From the NCBI GenBank assembly GCA_021779935.1, contig JAJXZT010000022.1, forward strand, positions 1 through 64,000: DNA of 64,000 nt, given 5' to 3'. Positions 604-24,981 of this stretch are shown piece by piece. The DNA comes from Acidobacteriota bacterium. Lineage in GTDB: Bacteria; Acidobacteriota; Terriglobia; Terriglobales; Acidobacteriaceae. A program made the translations under genes and the position numbers. Under the pieces are notes generated by a model. The model did not search any database, was not told the DNA's origin, and worked only from the letters and a program-made list of their open reading frames with translations. Position 1 is the first letter of the stretch. Each line of letters begins with the position of its first letter.

Positions 604-3600
604 ATGAAAAAGAGATATTGGAGCCTTGCAATCCTTGTACTGGCTCTTTTCCTGTCCTCCATAGCGATGTACGCCCAGGAATATCGGTCAACAATCAGCG
701 GCTCCGTGACGGATCCATCCGGCGCCGCGATAACTGGCGCGAAAGTCACCATCACGGAAGTCCGTACAAATACCAAGACACAGACGACGACGGATAAATC
801 CGGACAGTACGTCGTTCCGTTCCTGGTGCCTGGCAAGTACCAGGTTGACGTCGATGCGCCAGGGTTCAAGCGCTACGTCCGCAAAGCGTTCACGCTGAAC
901 TCTGGAGATCATCCGATCATTGACGTTAAGTTGGAGATCGGCAGCACCTCCGAGACGGTGAACGTCACGGATGAAGCACCGTTGATCGATACGGCAAACT
1001 CCTCCACGGGACAAACGATCACGACAAGAGAAGTGGAGGATTTCCCGCTCAACGGCCGAAATCCGATGATGCTTGCGCAATTGGCAATTGGAGTCGTGGC
1101 TACCGGATCGCCCTCGATGGTGCATCCATTTGATAACGCGGCCGCCTCGGCGTGGAGCATCGGCGGTACGCCATCGCAGTCGAGCGAAATTCTACTGGAT
1201 GGCTCACCGAATGCGACGTGGGACAACCGTGTTGCTTACTCCGTGCCCCAAGACGCCGTGCAGGAAGTAAAAGTTAAAGCCTTCGACGTCGATGCGGCGT
1301 ATGGACACACGGGCGCAGGGACGATCAACCAAATCCTGAAGACCGGCACGAACCAGTTCCACGGATCGATTTACGAGTTTGCGCAGCCGAATGCGCTCAC
1401 GGCAAACACCTATTTCAATAATCGCCATAACAAACCTAGGCAAAACACGTCCTTTAACCAGTTTGGAGGTACGGCGGGAGGTCCACTGCGAATCCCACAT
1501 GTGTATGACGGAAGGGACAAGCTCTTTTGGTTTTTTGCCTACGAGAAGCTGAAGGATGGGCAGCCAAATACCGACCTCACCACGGTTCCGACGGCGGCTG
1601 AGCGCAACGGTGACTTTTCGGCACTGCTTAACATTCCGGGCAGCAGCAGTTGCATTGCAACGACTGGCTATAACTGTTACCAGATATTCAACCCATATTC
1701 AGGCGTGGTAAGCGGGAAGACCGTGGCGCGGCAACCATTCGCGAACAACATCATTCCGACGAACATGTTGAATCCGGTGGCGCTTGCTTACCTCAAATTG
1801 TTCCCACTGCCGAACACCGCCGGAAACTCGGACGGATTCCAGAACTACGCCAATAGCACAACAACTTCTGACAATTACAGCAACGAACTGGGACGGCTGG
1901 ATTACAACATGAGCGAACGCAGCCGTCTGTCGTTCGATATCCGCCACAACAACGAGTTCCAGACGAAGAACTACTACTTCAATAACCCGGCGACCGGATC
2001 GAACCTGACCCGAGAGAACTGGGGAGCCACGGTCGATGAGGTGTACACCTTTAATACGACGACGCTGCTGGACATACGCGCGAACTACACGCGCATGACC
2101 GAGATTCATGGTAGCCCGAGCGATGGGTTCGATCCCACAAGCTTGGGGTTCCCATCATCCATCGCAAGCACGTCAAATTACCTGCAGCTGCCTTATATCG
2201 CTTTCAGCGGAAGCTGTGGCAGCCAGAATAGTTTTCAGTGTCTCGGTCCCAGTGGTTCGTCCAGAACGCCGTCGCATTCTTACCAGATCTTTGGCGATCT
2301 GGTGAAAGTGATTGGCAACCATACTCTGAAATTCGGCATGGACCTTCGTCAGTACAATCTGGATGCCTTCACGTATGGCAATTCCACCGGGACGTACTCG
2401 TTCAACAGCAGCTGGACGAACGGACCGTTTACGAATTCGCCGAACGCAAATTTCGGGCAAGACTTTGCGGCATTTATGCTTGGATTGCCGAGCAGCGGGT
2501 CGTTGGATATCAACACCCGGGGTACTTACCACTCATACTACTATGCTGGTTTTGTGCAGGACGATTGGAGGGCGACTCCAACCCTGACGGTTAACCTCGG
2601 TGTCCGCTACGACCACGACACTCCGTATTACGAGAAACTCGGACGTACGGTCAACGGGTTTGACTTCACCGCGACCAATCCAATCTCGGCGGCGGCAAGC
2701 GCGGCTTATGACAAGAACCCGGTGCCGCAGATTCCGGTGGGAAGCTTTGTCGTTCCTGGCGGTCTGACTTTTCCGAGTGGTGACAACGGCGCGGTTTACC
2801 AGAACACGTCGCACTGGGTAAGTCCGCGTATCGGATTTGCCTGGAGTCCAGCGGCACTGAATAGCAAGACGGTGTTCCGCGGCGGATTTGGAATTTTCGT
2901 TCAACCGCTGACCATCTCCAACCTGAGCGTCGGCGGCAAGTATTCGTCCAATCCGATTCTCGATCAAGAAGGCTTCAGTCAGACGACGCCGATGATCGTT
3001 CCCTCGAACTACCTTCAACCGACGACGACCCTCAGCAATCCGTTTCCGAACGGATTCACCGCGCCTTCAGGATCGTCATTGGGGCTAGCAACATATAACG
3101 GGCAGAAGACTGTCAGCTTCCTTGCACCTGACATGAAGAACCCTTACGCGATTCGCTGGACGCTTGGCATTCAGCACGCGTTCAATCCAAGCCTGCTTCT
3201 CGAAGTTGCGTACATTGGAAACCACTCACTGCACCTGCCGGTCTCGATTACGCAGCTCAACGTGATCCCGCGTCAATACCTGAGCACGGCGACAACGCGT
3301 GACCAGACGCTCATCACCACCCTGACAGGATCTGTAGCAAATCCGTTCTATAACCTGTTGCCGGGCACGAGCTACAACGGCAAGACCATTCCCCTCGCGC
3401 AGCTTCTTTCTGCCTATCCGCAATATGGGGCGGGCGAAGGCAGCGGCAGCCAAGGACTGATCGAACAAAACGCCACGATCGGCAGCTCAACATTTAACAG
3501 CCTGAATGTTCGCCTTGAGAAGAGGCTGTCCAACGGGCTCTCGCTGACAGGCGTCTATATGTTCTCGAAGCTGATTGAGCAGGACACCTGGCTCAATGAC

Positions 3601-10516: not shown

Positions 10517-11839
10517 TCACTTCTGATGAATCTTCGCGTTTGCCATCATCGTAAGCGGGTCTCCCTGCATGGCCTGCACAGTAAAGTCATGCGCGGTGAC
10601 GGTGGCGTTACTGATCGTCATTCCCTTGCGCGCCGAAATATGCACATTCGTCAATGTAAGCGACGTAACGGGGCTCTCGGGCAAGCCGACGATAAAGCCT
10701 GCGGTCTTGGCGCCGACCGCCGTGAGGTTCTTGATGCTTATATCGTGAAAATGAGGAGTCAGCCTGGTTACTGGCTGCTTTTCGTCGTTGGCGGGAATCT
10801 TCGGATAGTACTCACTGATCAGGATAGGCGTTTTCACATCTTTCATTGTTATGTCGCGAAAATGCAGATCGCTGATGTCGTTTCCACGGTCGCGGTTCGA
10901 TTTCACGCGAATGCCATTATCAGTGTCCTTGAAGTGAATTCGCGCCACACGCACATTGTGCACGCCTCCGGCGACTTCGCTGCCGATGGACATTCCGTGA
11001 CCGTGCAGAAAAGTCGAATCCGTGATGGAGATGTCCGTGCTTGGTTCGTCACCGCCGGGCGATCCCGGCTGTCCTGACTTGATCGCAATGTCGTCGTCGC
11101 CGGTATCGATCGTGACATGGGAGATGGTCACATGGTGAGAAGAAAACGGATCGATACCATCCGTGTTGGGAGCGTTCCTGGGAGCAAGTATCCTGGCGTT
11201 GTCAATCGCGACGTCATCCGAATAATAAAGAACCACTTGCCACATCGGGGAGTTACGGATAGTAACGTTGTGAATGCGGATGTGGCGACAGTGGTCGAAA
11301 ACGACAAGGCGCGGCCTCAGGAGATCAGTATGGCGATGCTCGCGCCGCGCTTCCCACATCTCTTTCCACCAAACCTCTCCCGCTCCATCGATTGCACCGC
11401 CGCCCGTGATGGTGATGTCCTCGGAATTAGTCGCGCTTATCAGTGGCTGCAACGCTTGTTCGCGAAACTCTTCCACTGGAGGATAGTCTCGCCGATCCTG
11501 GCTGCCGAGAAGGGTCGCTCCGGGTGCGATGTCCAGCGTGACGTGACTCTTCAATGTGAGCGGTGCAGTAAGAAATGTACCGGCGGAAAGACGAACAGTG
11601 CCACCACCTTGGGCTGAACATTCGTCAATGGCGTGTTGAAGAGCGCCTGTATCTTTCGTCGTTCCGTCGGCCTTTGCGCCGTAGGTCATTGGATCGCAGA
11701 TCCGGCCGCCGGTGGATGCAAAGGCCGTTGGCGCAGCGCTGAAGAGCGATGCCAGAACGAGCAAGACAATTGGAAGAGGAACTCGAAATACACGGTTGAA
11801 GGAGGAAATCGTCACTTCGAAGGCAAGAGCACGGCGCAT
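10517..11839 (-). CDS. Secreted polygalacturonase (GH28)
   Basis: 440-residue single-domain GH28 enzyme for pectin backbone hydrolysis. The N-terminus has a basic start and hydrophobic core (PLPIVLLVLASLFS) ending near AFAS at about residue 42, consistent with export. The active-site series is complete: NTDGIDPF, TGDDDIAIKSG, HGHGMSIGSE and NGIRVKS. AGGA lies about ten bases before the ATG. It is the first gene of a two-gene minus-strand unit with the GH28-CE8 fusion. Its promoter region (11840-12007) is divergent from the proC leader, and a perfect inverted repeat lies between them. Confidence 0.93.
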   Translation of the reverse strand: MRRALAFEVTISSFNRVFRVPLPIVLLVLASLFSAAPTAFASTGGRICDPMTYGAKADGTTKDTGALQHAIDECSAQGGGTVRLSAGTFLTAPLTLKSHVTLDIAPGATLLGSQDRRDYPPVEEFREQALQPLISATNSEDITITGGGAIDGAGEVWWKEMWEARREHRHTDLLRPRLVVFDHCRHIRIHNVTIRNSPMWQVVLYYSDDVAIDNARILAPRNAPNTDGIDPFSSHHVTISHVTIDTGDDDIAIKSGQPGSPGGDEPSTDISITDSTFLHGHGMSIGSEVAGGVHNVRVARIHFKDTDNGIRVKSNRDRGNDISDLHFRDITMKDVKTPILISEYYPKIPANDEKQPVTRLTPHFHDISIKNLTAVGAKTAGFIVGLPESPVTSLTLTNVHISARKGMTISNATVTAHDFTVQAMQGDPLTMMANAKIHQK

Positions 11840-12007
11840 GGAAAAGTCCTAGAGGAACAGCATTCACAAATGGGTATCGCGCACACAGAACCGCGCATCA
11901 TTATTGTAGCTGCGAGAAGTACGTGCCATACGCCGAGAAGTGCCACATTTTTCAGAGTATTTATGGTGTTCACAGTACGAGACGACGTGCAGCATTGCCA
12001 AAACAAA

Positions 12008-12033
12008 TGCATGGAATCAAATCATTCCATGCA
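12008..12033. promoter_or_regulatory. Perfect 10-bp inverted repeat, candidate operator
   Basis: TGCATGGAAT and its exact reverse complement ATTCCATGCA are separated by six bases. The repeat lies 7 bases upstream of the predicted -35 box of the proC leader and about 170 bases upstream of the divergent polygalacturonase gene. It resembles the dyads bound by dimeric sugar-responsive repressors. No such regulator gene lies in the window, and which of the two promoters it serves is unknown. Confidence 0.45.
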
Positions 12034-12040
12034 CTGTTGA

Positions 12041-12070
12041 TTGACAGGTGCGGAGCGTGCCGTGCAGAAT
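12041..12070 (+). promoter_or_regulatory. Predicted promoter of the proC leader
   Basis: A perfect -35 TTGACA (12041-12046), an 18-base spacer and the -10 CAGAAT (12065-12070, four of six matches). The expected start point near 12077 lies only about four bases before the leader ATG at 12081. Translation of the leader would therefore be leaderless or nearly so, consistent with the absence of any Shine-Dalgarno there. Confidence 0.5.
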
Positions 12071-12080
12071 ACAACTTCCC

Positions 12081-12167
12081 ATGATACTTAAGCCATCCAT
12101 CCCGTCGCCGTTACCGTGCATGCCGCCGGTGTCTTTGCGACTGTGGGATTGGAGTGAGCGCCCTTAG
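12081..12167 (+). CDS. Proline-rich leader peptide upstream of proC
   Basis: 28-codon ORF, ATG to TAG, in the leader of proC. Seven codons are proline (four of the five between codons 5 and 15 are CCG; two adjacent CCG codons at 15-16). The core reads LPCMPP at codons 11-16 and the peptide ends SERP. It lies between a predicted promoter and an intrinsic terminator. Codons 21-23 contain CTGTGGG (12141-12147), which can pair with CCCACGG, the 5' arm of the terminator. A ribosome stalled at the proline codons would leave that segment free to form an antiterminator. The same layout and an LPC-PP core occur before proB. I infer a regulatory leader peptide sensing charged tRNA-Pro. Peptide function is not needed for this. 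Confidence 0.65.
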   Translation: MILKPSIPSPLPCMPPVSLRLWDWSERP

Positions 12168-12194
12168 CTGAAGCCAGACAATCAGCAGACATCC

Positions 12195-12228
12195 AAGCCC
12201 ACGGGTTACAAGCCGTGGGCTTTTTGTT
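12195..12228 (+). terminator. Intrinsic terminator (attenuator) before proC
   Basis: The arms AAGCCCACGG (12195-12204) and CCGTGGGCTT (12213-12222) form a 10-bp stem with an 8-base loop, followed directly by TTTGTTT. It stands 29 bases before the proC start codon. There is no complete upstream gene on this strand whose end it would serve. Its location inside the proC leader, just after the proline-rich ORF, argues that it is an attenuator. Confidence 0.75.
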
Positions 12229-12250
12229 TCTGAACCCAAGGAGAAGAAGA

Positions 12251-13111
12251 GTGAAGCGAACGAATGCACAGCACGTAACCGGCAGCCTCGAATCAAAGGT
12301 CATAGCAATTCTCGGAGCAGGCAAGATGGGTAGCCTGCTTGCAGTCTCGCTTCTACGCGACTCTGGAGTTCCGGCCGGCAGAATTCGCGCGACAGTCCGG
12401 CATGATGACAATGCCCGTGCGCTTGAAGAAAAGCTTGGCATTAAAGTGGGTACCGATAACCTCGCCGCAGTCAAGGGTGCGGATATCGTATTTGTCTGCG
12501 TCAAGCCGCAATATGTGTCCGAACTGCTGCAGGAAACACGTGCGGTGTTGGCTCCCACAGCGGTGGTGATTTCCATCGCAACGGGCATTGCGACTCGATC
12601 GATTGAAGACATGATCGGCGACGGGATAGCGGTCGTACGAGCCATGCCGAACACCGCTTGTAGAATCGGCCAAGGAATGACTGCCGTCTGTCTTGGCCGC
12701 CACGTATCGAAATCCGTTCTTGCGGACGCAGAGCGAATGTTTGCGAAGATGGGCAGGACAGCTGAAGTCGACGAACAGTTGATGGATGCGGTCACGGGGC
12801 TTTCGGCGAGCGGGCCGGCATTTGTGTACATCATCCTCGAAGCACTTGCCGAGGGAGGTGTTCGAGCGGGCCTGCCGCGGAGCCTCGCCACTCTGCTTGC
12901 TGCACAGGCAACTCTGGGAGCCGCATCGATGGTGCTGCACACGGGAGAACACCCAGCCGTCCTCAAGGCAGAAGTAACAACACCCGGTGGATGTACGGTT
13001 GACGGAATCCTGGAACTTGAGGACGGGAAGATTCGCGCCACTCTGATTCGCGCCATAGCAACCACGGCGGCAAAAGCTGGTCGTATGGCACCTCGGCCGC
13101 ATCCTGCCTAG
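12251..13111 (+). CDS. proC: Pyrroline-5-carboxylate reductase
   Basis: 286-residue NAD(P)H-dependent enzyme for the last step of proline synthesis. The Rossmann motif is GAGKMGSLLAVSLL. The family segments VVRAMPNTACRIGQGMTAVC and GLSASGPAFVYIILEALAEGGVR are present, as is TPGGCTVDGI near the end. I start it at GTG 12251 because AAGGAG lies exactly seven bases upstream. An earlier in-frame ATG at 12215 sits inside the terminator stem and is unlikely. It is probably monocistronic. The leader upstream suggests control by proline supply. proB and proA are 10 kb away on the opposite strand with a matching leader. Confidence 0.95.
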   Translation: MKRTNAQHVTGSLESKVIAILGAGKMGSLLAVSLLRDSGVPAGRIRATVRHDDNARALEEKLGIKVGTDNLAAVKGADIVFVCVKPQYVSELLQETRAVLAPTAVVISIATGIATRSIEDMIGDGIAVVRAMPNTACRIGQGMTAVCLGRHVSKSVLADAERMFAKMGRTAEVDEQLMDAVTGLSASGPAFVYIILEALAEGGVRAGLPRSLATLLAAQATLGAASMVLHTGEHPAVLKAEVTTPGGCTVDGILELEDGKIRATLIRAIATTAAKAGRMAPRPHPA

Positions 13112-22460: not shown

Positions 22461-23822
22461 CTACGTAGTGAACTTGCTTGCTGCCGGAGACGATTGCGAA
22501 GTCAGTTGCCGGCATCTTCCGGCCGACGCGTGGCATTGTCGGTGTTTGAACGGCTTCGCGTTTTCACCTGTATAACTGGATGCGCAATGGCCGTTACCGC
22601 GTAGCAGCCACTTGTATGTCACGAGACCGTCGAGTCCAGCGGGCCCACGGGGCGGGAGTTTGCCCGTGCTGATCCCAACCTCGGCTCCAAGCCCGTAGCG
22701 GAAGCCGTCTGCAAAACGAGTGGACGCATTGTGAAATACTCCGGCAGAATCAACTTCGCGTAGAAAGCGTTGCGCCACTTCCGGGTTTGACGTCAAGATG
22801 GAGTCGGTGTGGCCTGATCCAAAGCGCGCGATATGTGTCATCGCTTGGTCGAGGTTTTCGACGACCCTTACTGCTATCGTCAAATCGCCGTACTCTGTCG
22901 CCCATTCGCTCTCGTCAGTGATCACATCGATCGGAGTGCCGGCAGCGAGTCGCGCCGTGACCTCGCATCCGCGCACCCTTACCGACGCATTCGCCAGTGC
23001 CTTCGCGAGCCTCGGCACAAAGTCCGCCGCATCACGGTGGATGAGCACCGTTTCCACTGCGTTGCAGGCGCTTGGAGCCTGAGTCTTGGCGTCAAGAATT
23101 ACGCGAGTAGCCATCTCGCAGTCCGCTTCTGCATCAACATATATGTGACAGATTCCCTCTGCGTGTCCGATTACTGGAATACGAGTGTTGTCCTGAACGT
23201 ATCGAATCAACTCCTTACTTCCTCGCGGAACGATCAGGTCGATCCAGTCAACCATGCCGAGAAGATCGGCTACCGCTTCACGACCGTAGATAACAGTGAC
23301 GCAGCCTTCGGGCAATTCTTGCTCGAGGAGTGAACACCGCACGAGTTGCTCGATTGCCGCAACCGTGGCGTTTGCCTCACGCCCGGCTTTGACTATCAGC
23401 GCATTCCCAGATTTCAAGGCGAGGCTGATCAGTTGCACAACCGCGTCGGGACGCGACTCGACAATTGCTGCGATGGTGCCGAAGGGTACGGTCACCTGCT
23501 GTAATTCCAGTCCGTCATCAAGCAGCGTATCGCGCAGGACTTGTCCCGTCGGATCATTCAATCCGACAACCTGCCGTACGGATGCCACCATCTGATGAAT
23601 TTTCGAATCACTGAGTTTCAAGCGTTCGATCAGGGAGCGATTGAGACCTTCGGCCTCGGCATTTCTTACGTCCTCCGCGTTCCGGGCAAGCAGTGTTCCA
23701 GCAGATTGCTCAATACGACACGCGAAGCTTTCGAGTGCCAGGTTTTTCGCACTGGTGCTTGCCCTTCCAAGGGCCCGGCTGGCCAGGCGCGCTCGTTCGG
23801 CGATTTCCTTTATGTCAGTCAT
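22461..23822 (-). CDS. proA: Gamma-glutamyl phosphate reductase
   Basis: 453-residue NADPH-dependent enzyme producing glutamate-5-semialdehyde. It has the ALDH-fold family sequences IVESRPDAVVQLISLALKSG and VIGHAEGICHIYVD. The catalytic Cys lies in AKTQAPSACNAVETVLIH. The late segment RYGLGAEVGIST is followed by GPAGLDGLVTYKWLLRG, where most ProA proteins end. Here about 40 further residues follow (Cys- and Ser-rich, no motif). The ATG at 23822 overlaps the proB stop (ATGACTGA), so the pair is translationally coupled. Confidence 0.95.
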   Translation of the reverse strand: MTDIKEIAERARLASRALGRASTSAKNLALESFACRIEQSAGTLLARNAEDVRNAEAEGLNRSLIERLKLSDSKIHQMVASVRQVVGLNDPTGQVLRDTLLDDGLELQQVTVPFGTIAAIVESRPDAVVQLISLALKSGNALIVKAGREANATVAAIEQLVRCSLLEQELPEGCVTVIYGREAVADLLGMVDWIDLIVPRGSKELIRYVQDNTRIPVIGHAEGICHIYVDAEADCEMATRVILDAKTQAPSACNAVETVLIHRDAADFVPRLAKALANASVRVRGCEVTARLAAGTPIDVITDESEWATEYGDLTIAVRVVENLDQAMTHIARFGSGHTDSILTSNPEVAQRFLREVDSAGVFHNASTRFADGFRYGLGAEVGISTGKLPPRGPAGLDGLVTYKWLLRGNGHCASSYTGENAKPFKHRQCHASAGRCRQLTSQSSPAASKFTT

Positions 23823-24636
23823 GCGCAGACTCCCTGTCGAGTATCGTCCCCACCGCATTCCCGGCCATGATTTCGCTGAGCACAGACGGGCGGCGTCCGT
23901 TGGCAATCACGGCTCGCAGGCATCCGTGCTTCACCGCATATTGTGCTGCGTGCACTTTCGCGGACATTCCTCCCCGGCCATGACGTCCCGTGTGAGGCTC
24001 GATGCCTGCACTCAGATCGCCGAGGTTGCGCAGAAGTCGTGCACCAGGCGCCGACGGATGTGCGGTATAGACACCGTCCACGTCGGTCAGCAGAATCAGG
24101 CAATCGGCATTGAGCGCTCCCGCAATGATTGCAGCCAACATGTCGTTATCACGAAACACTCGTGCCTCGGTGATCGCCCAGTGTGTGGCCGCATCATTTT
24201 CGTTGACGATCGCCGCGAAGCCCCTCCGCATTGAATGTTCAAGAGTGTGGCAGAGTCTCACAAGACGGGCCGGGTCTCTCACGTCATCGTTAGTTACCAG
24301 AACTTGCGCGCTGAGGATTCCAAGTTCGCGAAATGCTCTTTCGTACGTGGCCGTCAAAACGCTCTGGCCGACCGCAGATAGAATCGCAATCTCCGCGCCG
24401 TCGGCTGCCTCTCCAAGACGCGAGCGGCCCAATGCAATCGCTCCGGACGAGACGAGAACAACCTGCGCCCCGCCTTCCATGAGGTGATGCACGGAGGATG
24501 CAATGTCGCCAATTGTGTTTTCGATCGCCGTGTCATCCCCGCGCAACAATACGTTGCTGCCGATTTTGATAACGACTCGCCGGTGTACGTGTTCCCACCC
24601 TGTATGCGTGCTGTTCCTGAATGCTGGGTTTTCCAT
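23815..24636 (-). CDS. proB: Glutamate 5-kinase, short form without PUA domain
   Basis: 273 residues: an amino-acid-kinase domain only. Phosphate-loop KIGSNVLL, LVSSGAIALGRSRLG, ATHWAITEARVFRDNDMLAA, LLTDVDGVYTAHP and GRHGRGGMSAKVHAA are all seen. The C-terminal PUA domain of the longer ProB proteins (about 367 residues in E. coli) is absent, as in the known short-form kinases. I start at ATG 24636, five bases after AGGAG. The frame is open 70 codons further upstream into the terminator, but that part has no family similarity. It is first in the proBA operon behind an attenuator-like leader. Confidence 0.95.
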   Translation of the reverse strand: MENPAFRNSTHTGWEHVHRRVVIKIGSNVLLRGDDTAIENTIGDIASSVHHLMEGGAQVVLVSSGAIALGRSRLGEAADGAEIAILSAVGQSVLTATYERAFRELGILSAQVLVTNDDVRDPARLVRLCHTLEHSMRRGFAAIVNENDAATHWAITEARVFRDNDMLAAIIAGALNADCLILLTDVDGVYTAHPSAPGARLLRNLGDLSAGIEPHTGRHGRGGMSAKVHAAQYAVKHGCLRAVIANGRRPSVLSEIMAGNAVGTILDRESAHD

Positions 24637-24829: not shown

Positions 24830-24865
24830 AAAACAAAAAAGCCCACCGGTTGCCGGTGGGCTTTT
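24830..24865 (-). terminator. Intrinsic terminator (attenuator) before proB
   Basis: Read on the minus strand, AAAAGCCCACCGG and CCGGTGGGCTTTT form a 13-bp perfect stem with a three-base loop, followed by further T residues (TTGTTTT). It lies about 190 bases before the proB start and 17 bases after the stop of the proline-rich leader ORF. The stem sequence is nearly the same as that of the proC attenuator. Confidence 0.78.
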
Positions 24866-24882
24866 CCTGAATGATTGCTGTC

Positions 24883-24981
24883 TTACTTAGTTTCAGCCGA
24901 TCTCTTCCAGGGCAAACCCACGCTCCGCGCCGGCGGGCACGGGAGAAGCGACAGGTTTGGGAAGATCATCATGATGTTCAT
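24883..24981 (-). CDS. Proline-rich leader peptide upstream of proBA
   Basis: 32-codon ORF from the first ATG (24981) to TAA. In-frame ATGs at 24972 and 24969 would give 29 or 28 residues. Five prolines, with the core LLPCPPARS (CCG TGC CCG CCG). Codons 21-23 contain GTGGGTTT, able to pair over 8 bp (one G-U) with AAAGCCCAC of the following terminator. CAAACCT at codons 8-10 can pair with the same segment when it is not occupied. This gives the classic 1:2, 2:3 and 3:4 alternatives of a translation-coupled attenuator. There is no Shine-Dalgarno, but the predicted promoter places the start point at about the third ATG-proximal bases. The LPC-PP core and length match the proC leader. Confidence 0.65.
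   Translation of the reverse strand: MNIMMIFPNLSLLPCPPARSVGLPWKRSAETK

Follow-up and report, generated by a model that had tools for sequence, protein, structure and literature searches.

The 64,000-nucleotide stretch of Acidobacteriota DNA analysed here (the window) carries upstream of proC a short proline-rich open reading frame (ORF) followed by an intrinsic terminator, and we consider this leader, with a probability of about 0.88, to be a classical ribosome-mediated transcription attenuator through which charged tRNA-Pro would control proline synthesis, forming a matched pair with a second leader upstream of proBA. The weight of the case rests on codon content, gene function and the co-occurrence of the parts.

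Leaders of proC and proBA in the window

The ORF of the proC leader, its codon content, the terminator and the possible alternative pairings with their register are shown here. On the plus strand, a promoter-like sequence (TTGACA-18-CAGAAT, 12041-12070; as good in 0 of 200 shuffles) has its -10 end 10 nt before the ATG of the leader ORF (MILKPSIPSPLPCMPPVSLRLWDWSERP, 12081-12167), which runs for 28 codons from the ATG at 12081 to the TAG at 12167 and contains seven Pro codons (five of them CCG), including the adjacent CCG CCG at 12123-12128 (codons 15-16), the presumed control codons. The terminator with its U-tract occupies 12195-12226 and has a 10-bp stem and an 8-nt loop (AAGCCCACGG-GTTACAAG-CCGTGGGCTT at 12195-12222, followed by TTTTGTTT; -19.2 kcal/mol). 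Direct reading bears out the ORF, its proline codons and the 10-bp terminator as a sequence-only reading had described them, and corrects the distance from the terminator to the proC GTG from 29 bases to 28 nt. The gene itself (12251-13111, plus strand) starts with this GTG behind a GGAG and encodes pyrroline-5-carboxylate reductase (TIGR00112, 252 bits, cut-off 197).

The proC terminator has the most G-C pairs of nine terminator-like sites between 11000 and 14000 (both strands; shuffles 3.2), and a stricter scan of both strands of the whole window gives eight terminators, two of which (those of proC and proBA) have a short Pro-rich ORF before them and a gene after them. Since the gene next upstream of proC (10517-11839) is on the opposite strand, the terminator has no upstream gene to serve, and the divergent orientation of the nearest neighbours of both proC and proBA rules out an ordinary terminator of an upstream gene. 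A repeat element is also ruled out, the proC leader DNA having no second close copy in the genome (next best E 0.13). Just upstream of the proC -35 lies a 10-bp palindrome (12006-12035, TGCATGGAAT-CAAATC-ATTCCATGCA), which could be an operator or a minus-strand terminator-like hairpin upstream of the divergent gene.

The second leader is on the minus strand (whole element 24981-24833, followed by proB and then proA) and was recovered both by a covariance model of proC leaders (R1, below) and by the stricter terminator scan. Its Pro-rich ORF (MNIMMIFPNLSLLPCPPARSVGLPWKRSAETK, 24883-24981) is separated from proBA by a terminator of -22.2 kcal/mol (24836-24866). Glutamate 5-kinase, encoded by proB (23815-24636, minus strand; TIGR01027 194.6 bits, cut-off 186), is short here (273 aa, AA_kinase match only), with the C-terminal part of the family model unmatched and no C-terminal domain found; proA (22461-23819, minus strand, start provisional) encodes glutamate-5-semialdehyde dehydrogenase (NF001221, 504 bits). 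By eye, TTGACT-17-TATCCC directly precedes the first ATG of the proBA leader, so that the ORF may begin at the ATG of 24972 or 24969. Between the proBA terminator and proB there is also a 39-codon ORF (MGSKQNKDFLPAAHASS..., 24820-24701, minus strand) with a GGAG, perhaps the remnant of a proC copy, since a related genome (G102) has leader-proC-proB operons.

Distribution of proline leaders in related genomes

Regions upstream of proC were taken from 70 of 358 matching family genomes (the 30 best-scoring loci and 40 picked across genera, not a random sample) and from 32 of 35 other loci (L059, L071 and L072 left out); among these 102 regions, at least two loci apparently occur in both sets (L042/L095, L048/L098), and L025 and L039 have under 100 nt of upstream sequence. 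A short PC-x-PP- or PCPP-containing ORF is present in six of the 102, and these are also the six with a terminator no more than 120 nt from the proC match, so that this ORF and the terminator always occur together. Terminator-like sites without a PC leader were seen in three regions (L041, L091 (~185 nt upstream) and L092 (inside the gene)), and ORFs with at least six Pro but no terminator nearby in L028, L031, L041, L064, L080, L082, L096, L097 and L111. The six leaders belong to the window (genus g1), four genomes of genus g54 and one of genus g46, and the residues M1, P8, P12, C13 and P15 of the window peptide are common to all six. In a 38-row proC tree with long branches and a root placed by midpoint only, the leader-bearing proC proteins, among them the second copy of G102, cluster together in a single group of 7 rows (100/100 support).

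The covariance model of these six leaders (R1), searched on 398 family genomes with stricter large-search filters, found one further copy in each of the six genomes, located before proB in g54 and before a second proC-proB operon in the g46 genome G102. Pro leaders were found by this search in 3 of 79 genera, so the leader does not extend across Terriglobia. Matches to proB at E 1e-20 occur in 109 of the 398 family genomes, and of 30 proB loci surveyed out of these 109, five have Pro leaders (three whole, and two with the ORF beyond the 400-nt limit, read separately). Elsewhere in the proB survey, L222 has no Pro leader, L213 and L217 have terminator-like sites without a Pro ORF, and L199 (the second gene of a proC-proB operon) and L223 have Pro-containing ORFs without a terminator. 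A leader common to all Terriglobia is ruled out by these counts (6/102 proC and 5/30 proB regions). A model of 12 Pro leaders (R2), searched on g46, g54 and a phylum sample, found no leader in two of the six genomes of g54 (completeness 88 and 83 percent), and in the phylum sample of 396 genomes its strong matches were the two window copies only (next best E 2.6e-4). Judged from these searches, the proline version of the attenuator appears to be narrowly spread.

The 16 Pro leaders found in total (proC 7, proB 5, ornithine cyclodeaminase 4) have 4-7 Pro codons each. CCG accounts for 73 of their 88 Pro codons, versus 60 of 156 in nine window genes, a bias that may reflect the sensing of one tRNA-Pro species or merely a need for GC-rich hairpins. 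By eye, the window proC peptide is likest the g54 proB peptides (IPSPLPC-PPV-LR--DW-ER) and the window proB peptide is likest the G102 proC peptides (LPCPPAR--GL-W); because peptide likeness crosses proC and proB, leader types do not follow gene types. The homologous proC leaders keep the ORF, the terminator and a strand that can pair with the arm of that terminator, and of the GTGGG segment, for which conservation had been expected, the role is kept and the letters are not.

Leaders on other genes

Searching g46 with R2 revealed Pro-rich leaders before a gene matching TIGR00300 ('ornithine cyclodeaminase, nickel-pincer nucleotide-dependent'; 557 bits for the G102 protein, cut-off 411), the product of which is non-homologous to those of proC and proBA. 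The protein has matches in 7 of 260 family genomes, five of them strong; four of the five are the g46 genomes, all of which have a Pro-rich leader (TNP-P-PRP), and the fifth is G018 of genus g19, where reading upstream of the gene gave no Pro leader. Among the g46 genomes with the cyclodeaminase, the proC search gave no match in G131 and one at only E = 2.1e-4 in G045. Since the cyclodeaminase has leaders and two genomes lack a convincing proC, the sensor goes with making proline and not with one gene. The recurrence of the anatomy before proBA and before this unrelated proline-making enzyme supports the original reading of the proC leader as a ribosome-mediated attenuator. Family-model support covers the genes of the window, one cyclodeaminase and one further proC.

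The R1 and R2 searches also returned 11 leaders for other amino acids (Thr 4, His 1, Cys 5, Trp-Trp 1), which are absent from both training sets. Thr-codon leaders precede aspartokinase in the four g54 genomes that also have the proC leader (L150, L151, L184-L187); two of them apparently start at TTG, the gene identity was tested on one of the four, and no Thr leader precedes the closest aspartokinase of the window genome. The leader before hisI in G045 (MTSLLHHRHHHHHDVVSAEAHGSL; L177, upstream of 1113-1454, minus strand) has eight His among 24 residues and is, by its sequence, a textbook-looking histidine attenuator. Cys-rich leaders with terminators (L154, L155, L158, L179 and L188, in genera g7, g46 and g54) precede cysK (G045), nitrite/sulfite reductase-type genes (G227, G266) and genes for a TauE/SafE exporter (G134) and a YeiH-type putative sulfate exporter (G107). 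In another Acidobacteriota family, a Trp-Trp leader (MLSEPSATIRLARTFPSSCWWRVRAEVGAGR; G654, L163, about 1480-1700, plus strand) with a terminator precedes trpE, and an antiterminator of -32.4 kcal/mol forms in the fold of its free RNA. The NCBIfam cut-offs are not reached by the reductase genes, the YeiH-type exporter or the truncated trpE. Four of 14 model-match regions (L152, L153, L156, L157) have no leader, and seven of 16 model-match loci (L190, L191, L162, L164, L165, L166, L171) have no callable one; L171 (minus strand; G567, another family) has, upstream of a 3-deoxy-7-phosphoheptulonate synthase gene, a terminator and an ORF of 14 codons (MLPVGTCMHFLVLL), and is a candidate only.

Gene function thus tracks leader codon content, with Pro codons on proC, proB and the cyclodeaminase gene, and codons for Thr, His, Cys or Trp on the corresponding genes; both the recurrence on unrelated proline genes and the matching residues on genes of other pathways are observed. 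This bears on a reading in which the same switch senses trouble at proline stretches (EF-P activity, or a stalling PC-x-PP nascent peptide) and not tRNA-Pro charging. All 12 proC/proB leaders have PC with a Pro closely after it and 11 of them have adjacent Pro, and EF-P is reported to act on proline-rich stretches in the case of Salmonella magnesium transporter genes. Sensing of such trouble is nevertheless unlikely, considering the PSP of the G134 proB leader, the cyclodeaminase leaders (adjacent Pro missing in three of four, the PC motif in all four) and the same layout elsewhere, where the codons are for Thr, His, Cys or Trp and the genes match them.

Promoters and start of the leaders

In all 25 leaders examined (16 Pro and nine others, their sequences related to one another), the end of the best sigma-70-like -10 lies 5-12 nt upstream of the start codon, compared with 504 of 2248 shuffles (22%), so the leaders are probably near-leaderless, with ORFs that would start at or near the mRNA 5' end. 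The promoter score is strong (reached by at most 5 of 200 shuffles) in 16 of the 25; the nine weak scores are those of four g54 and two G102 proC leaders, the window proBA leader and two Cys leaders. No Shine-Dalgarno-like run is present 4-18 nt before the start in 20 of the 25.

Alternative pairings and the position of the ribosome

In the attenuation mechanism, a ribosome would start at or close to the mRNA 5' end and read the Pro-rich leader. When charged tRNA-Pro is plentiful, it would reach the stop codon and cover region 2, the 5' strand of the antiterminator, leaving the terminator to form before proC; when charged tRNA-Pro is scarce, it would stall on the last Pro codons with its front just short of region 2, which would pair with region 3 (2:3), prevent the terminator and allow proC to be transcribed. 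Without a ribosome, a hairpin inside the ORF (1:2) would hold region 2 and lead to termination by default. Translation of the leader, its start near the 5' end, stalling, termination and a response to proline are what we infer.

In the window proC leader, duplex computation pairs region 2 (CTGTGGG-A-TTGGA, 12141-12153) with region 3 (TCCAA-G-CCCACGG, 12192-12204), which overlaps the 5' arm of the terminator, through 12 core pairs around one mismatch. The seven pairs between CTGTGGG (12141-12147) and CCCACGG (12198-12204) proposed earlier are present as stated, and their length was understated: the antiterminator passes a 1x1 mismatch (A12148/G12197) into TTGGA (12149-12153) and TCCAA (12192-12196), with a few looser pairs beyond, giving a duplex of -23.2 kcal/mol versus -19.2 for the terminator. 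The TCCC-GTCG/CGAC-TGT-GGGA protector pairing, proposed at the same time, appears in the minimum-energy fold. As regards the protector (1:2) more widely, the ORF RNA is steadier than the shuffle mean in 12 of 12 proC/proB leaders (z -0.5 to -4.2), with z at or below -1.9 in nine.

This stability above shuffles, together with a CCCGTGC-type stretch nearly invariant in 12 sequences, would also suit a metabolite- or protein-binding (riboswitch-like) RNA in which the ORF is incidental. Such an element is very improbable, given that the window has no Rfam match at gathering scores and that peptide content shifts with the downstream pathway at a constant layout. A T-box riboswitch is ruled out, the T-box covariance model having no match in the window and none in 41 genomes including the window genome (5 of 14 control genomes were positive).

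The register of the pairings suits a stalled ribosome as the sensor. PMC4833913 gives a ribosome footprint of ~12 nt downstream of the codon in translation, and in the window proC leader the 2:3 pairing begins 15 nt downstream of codon 16, counted from first base to first base. With the entire leader ORF left free to pair with region 3 and the best duplex scored, 12 of the 16 Pro leaders have a duplex that starts 11-15 nt past the last control Pro codon (measured from its first base), the exceptions being the window proBA leader (0), the G134 proB leader (+7) and the cyclodeaminase leaders of G102 (+4) and G045 (-4). When the ribosome is placed on the last control Pro codon and the polymerase at the terminator loop, the minimum-energy fold contains the 2:3 pairing in 15 of the 16, and in the sixteenth likewise after its terminator was set by hand. 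When the ribosome is placed at the stop codon, only the terminator is left in five of six proC leaders (those whose structures were shown; energies only for the remaining leaders). The ribosome-free fold contains the terminator hairpin in five of the six (the sixth was folded in truncated form), which would also be expected of a promoter-proximal terminator that is unregulated and does no more than fix a low basal level, since a terminator alone would suffice for this. We give this reading hardly any credence, as it leaves unexplained the Pro-rich ORFs on three unrelated proline genes and the strict pairing of ORF and terminator (6/6).

Nine of the Thr, His and Cys leaders form the 2:3 pairing with the ribosome on one or more of their last three control codons, and with the ribosome moved to the last control codon the pairing is clearly broken in three, weakened in five and left in one (n=9). 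Because each of the last three control codons was tried and one chosen for the nascent-fold shuffles, the nascent-fold figures of these nine are favourable; the Cys leader L158 was left out of the ribosome-position folds, its start codon not being settled.

In comparisons with dinucleotide shuffles, each of the 12 proC/proB leaders has a 2:3 duplex that surpasses at least 287 of 300 shuffles in strength, and the energy of the nascent-RNA fold is as low in 20 of 300 shuffles for window proC, in 1 of 300 for window proBA, and in 0-92 of 300 over 25 leaders. Counts of 2:3 pairs do not discriminate for GC-rich strands (for window proC, as many pairs in 192 of 300 shuffles), and the region 3 flank alone, reached by at most 21 of 300 shuffles in just 4 of 12 leaders, is mostly no better than shuffles. 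When strands were swapped among the 12 proC/proB leaders, the best region 2 of another lineage paired better than the leader's own in nine, so the swap gives no support for lineage-specific covariation. For the complete terminator, the unconstrained fold beyond the ribosome lies 1.1-13.3 kcal/mol below the antiterminator form in 16 of 16 Pro leaders, so that the attenuation model leans on folding order. Fold statistics for single leaders are modest, and the pairing evidence as a whole is supportive, short of covariation proof.

Relation to known attenuators

The classical amino-acid operon attenuators of Proteobacteria are the trp, his, leu and thr leaders, and Firmicutes have T-box leaders before proline genes. 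The leaders described here resemble the former in their control codons for the product amino acid, terminator, alternative antiterminator and 1:2 protector, but differ in that they concern proline, occur in Acidobacteriota, apparently have their ORF at or near the 5' end and mostly lack a Shine-Dalgarno-like run. With the proline T-boxes of Firmicutes they would share the sensing of tRNA charging before proline genes, although no T-box is found in the window or the 41 genomes.

Proline-sensing attenuation has been shown experimentally for Salmonella mgtCBR and is cited for mgtA, both of them magnesium genes; according to PMC3641672, proline limitation raises mgtC mRNA about fivefold in a manner dependent on Pro codons. 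Such mgtP/mgtL-type leaders (mgtCBR, mgtA) likewise have a short ORF with consecutive Pro codons, but they serve magnesium transport and virulence genes and not proline synthesis, and mgtP has a Shine-Dalgarno-like sequence (same paper). The leaderless polycysteine ORF attenuators of mycobacteria (Canestrari 2020 as cited in PMC9031893) are similar in that a short ORF at the 5' end carries the codons of the sensed amino acid in a contiguous run, but concern cysteine only, and the review speaks of the translation of downstream genes. For mycobacterial Cys leaders, PMC1262725 finds no terminator hairpins and suggests Rho; for Actinobacteria, it reports Trp, Cys and Leu leaders, and the word proline is absent from it. 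Earlier work knew of leader-peptide systems in Proteobacteria and Actinobacteria, and one for hisS was added for Firmicutes; because a leucine-rich attenuator peptide is also reported in Staphylococcus, leader peptides are not confined to Proteobacteria and Actinobacteria. Among the literature matches listed, which cover subscription journals thinly, none describes a leader peptide that attenuates genes of proline biosynthesis, and none an attenuator particular to Acidobacteriota. For other amino acids, switches of this kind are textbook knowledge from other bacteria, and that the proline-synthesis version was not found described is weak evidence.

Considering all leaders together, we somewhat favor the view that amino-acid synthesis in members of this Acidobacteriota family is governed by a wide range of near-leaderless attenuators (for Pro, Thr, His and Cys), the proline version of which would have arisen on or moved to whichever proline enzyme is used (proC, proBA, or the nickel-pincer ornithine cyclodeaminase where proC was not found). 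If this is true, it would be, to our knowledge, the first feedback attenuation of proline synthesis. The result is a concrete and testable set of leaders in Acidobacteriota, with sensors matched to genes and one sensing logic placed on unrelated enzymes of the same pathway.
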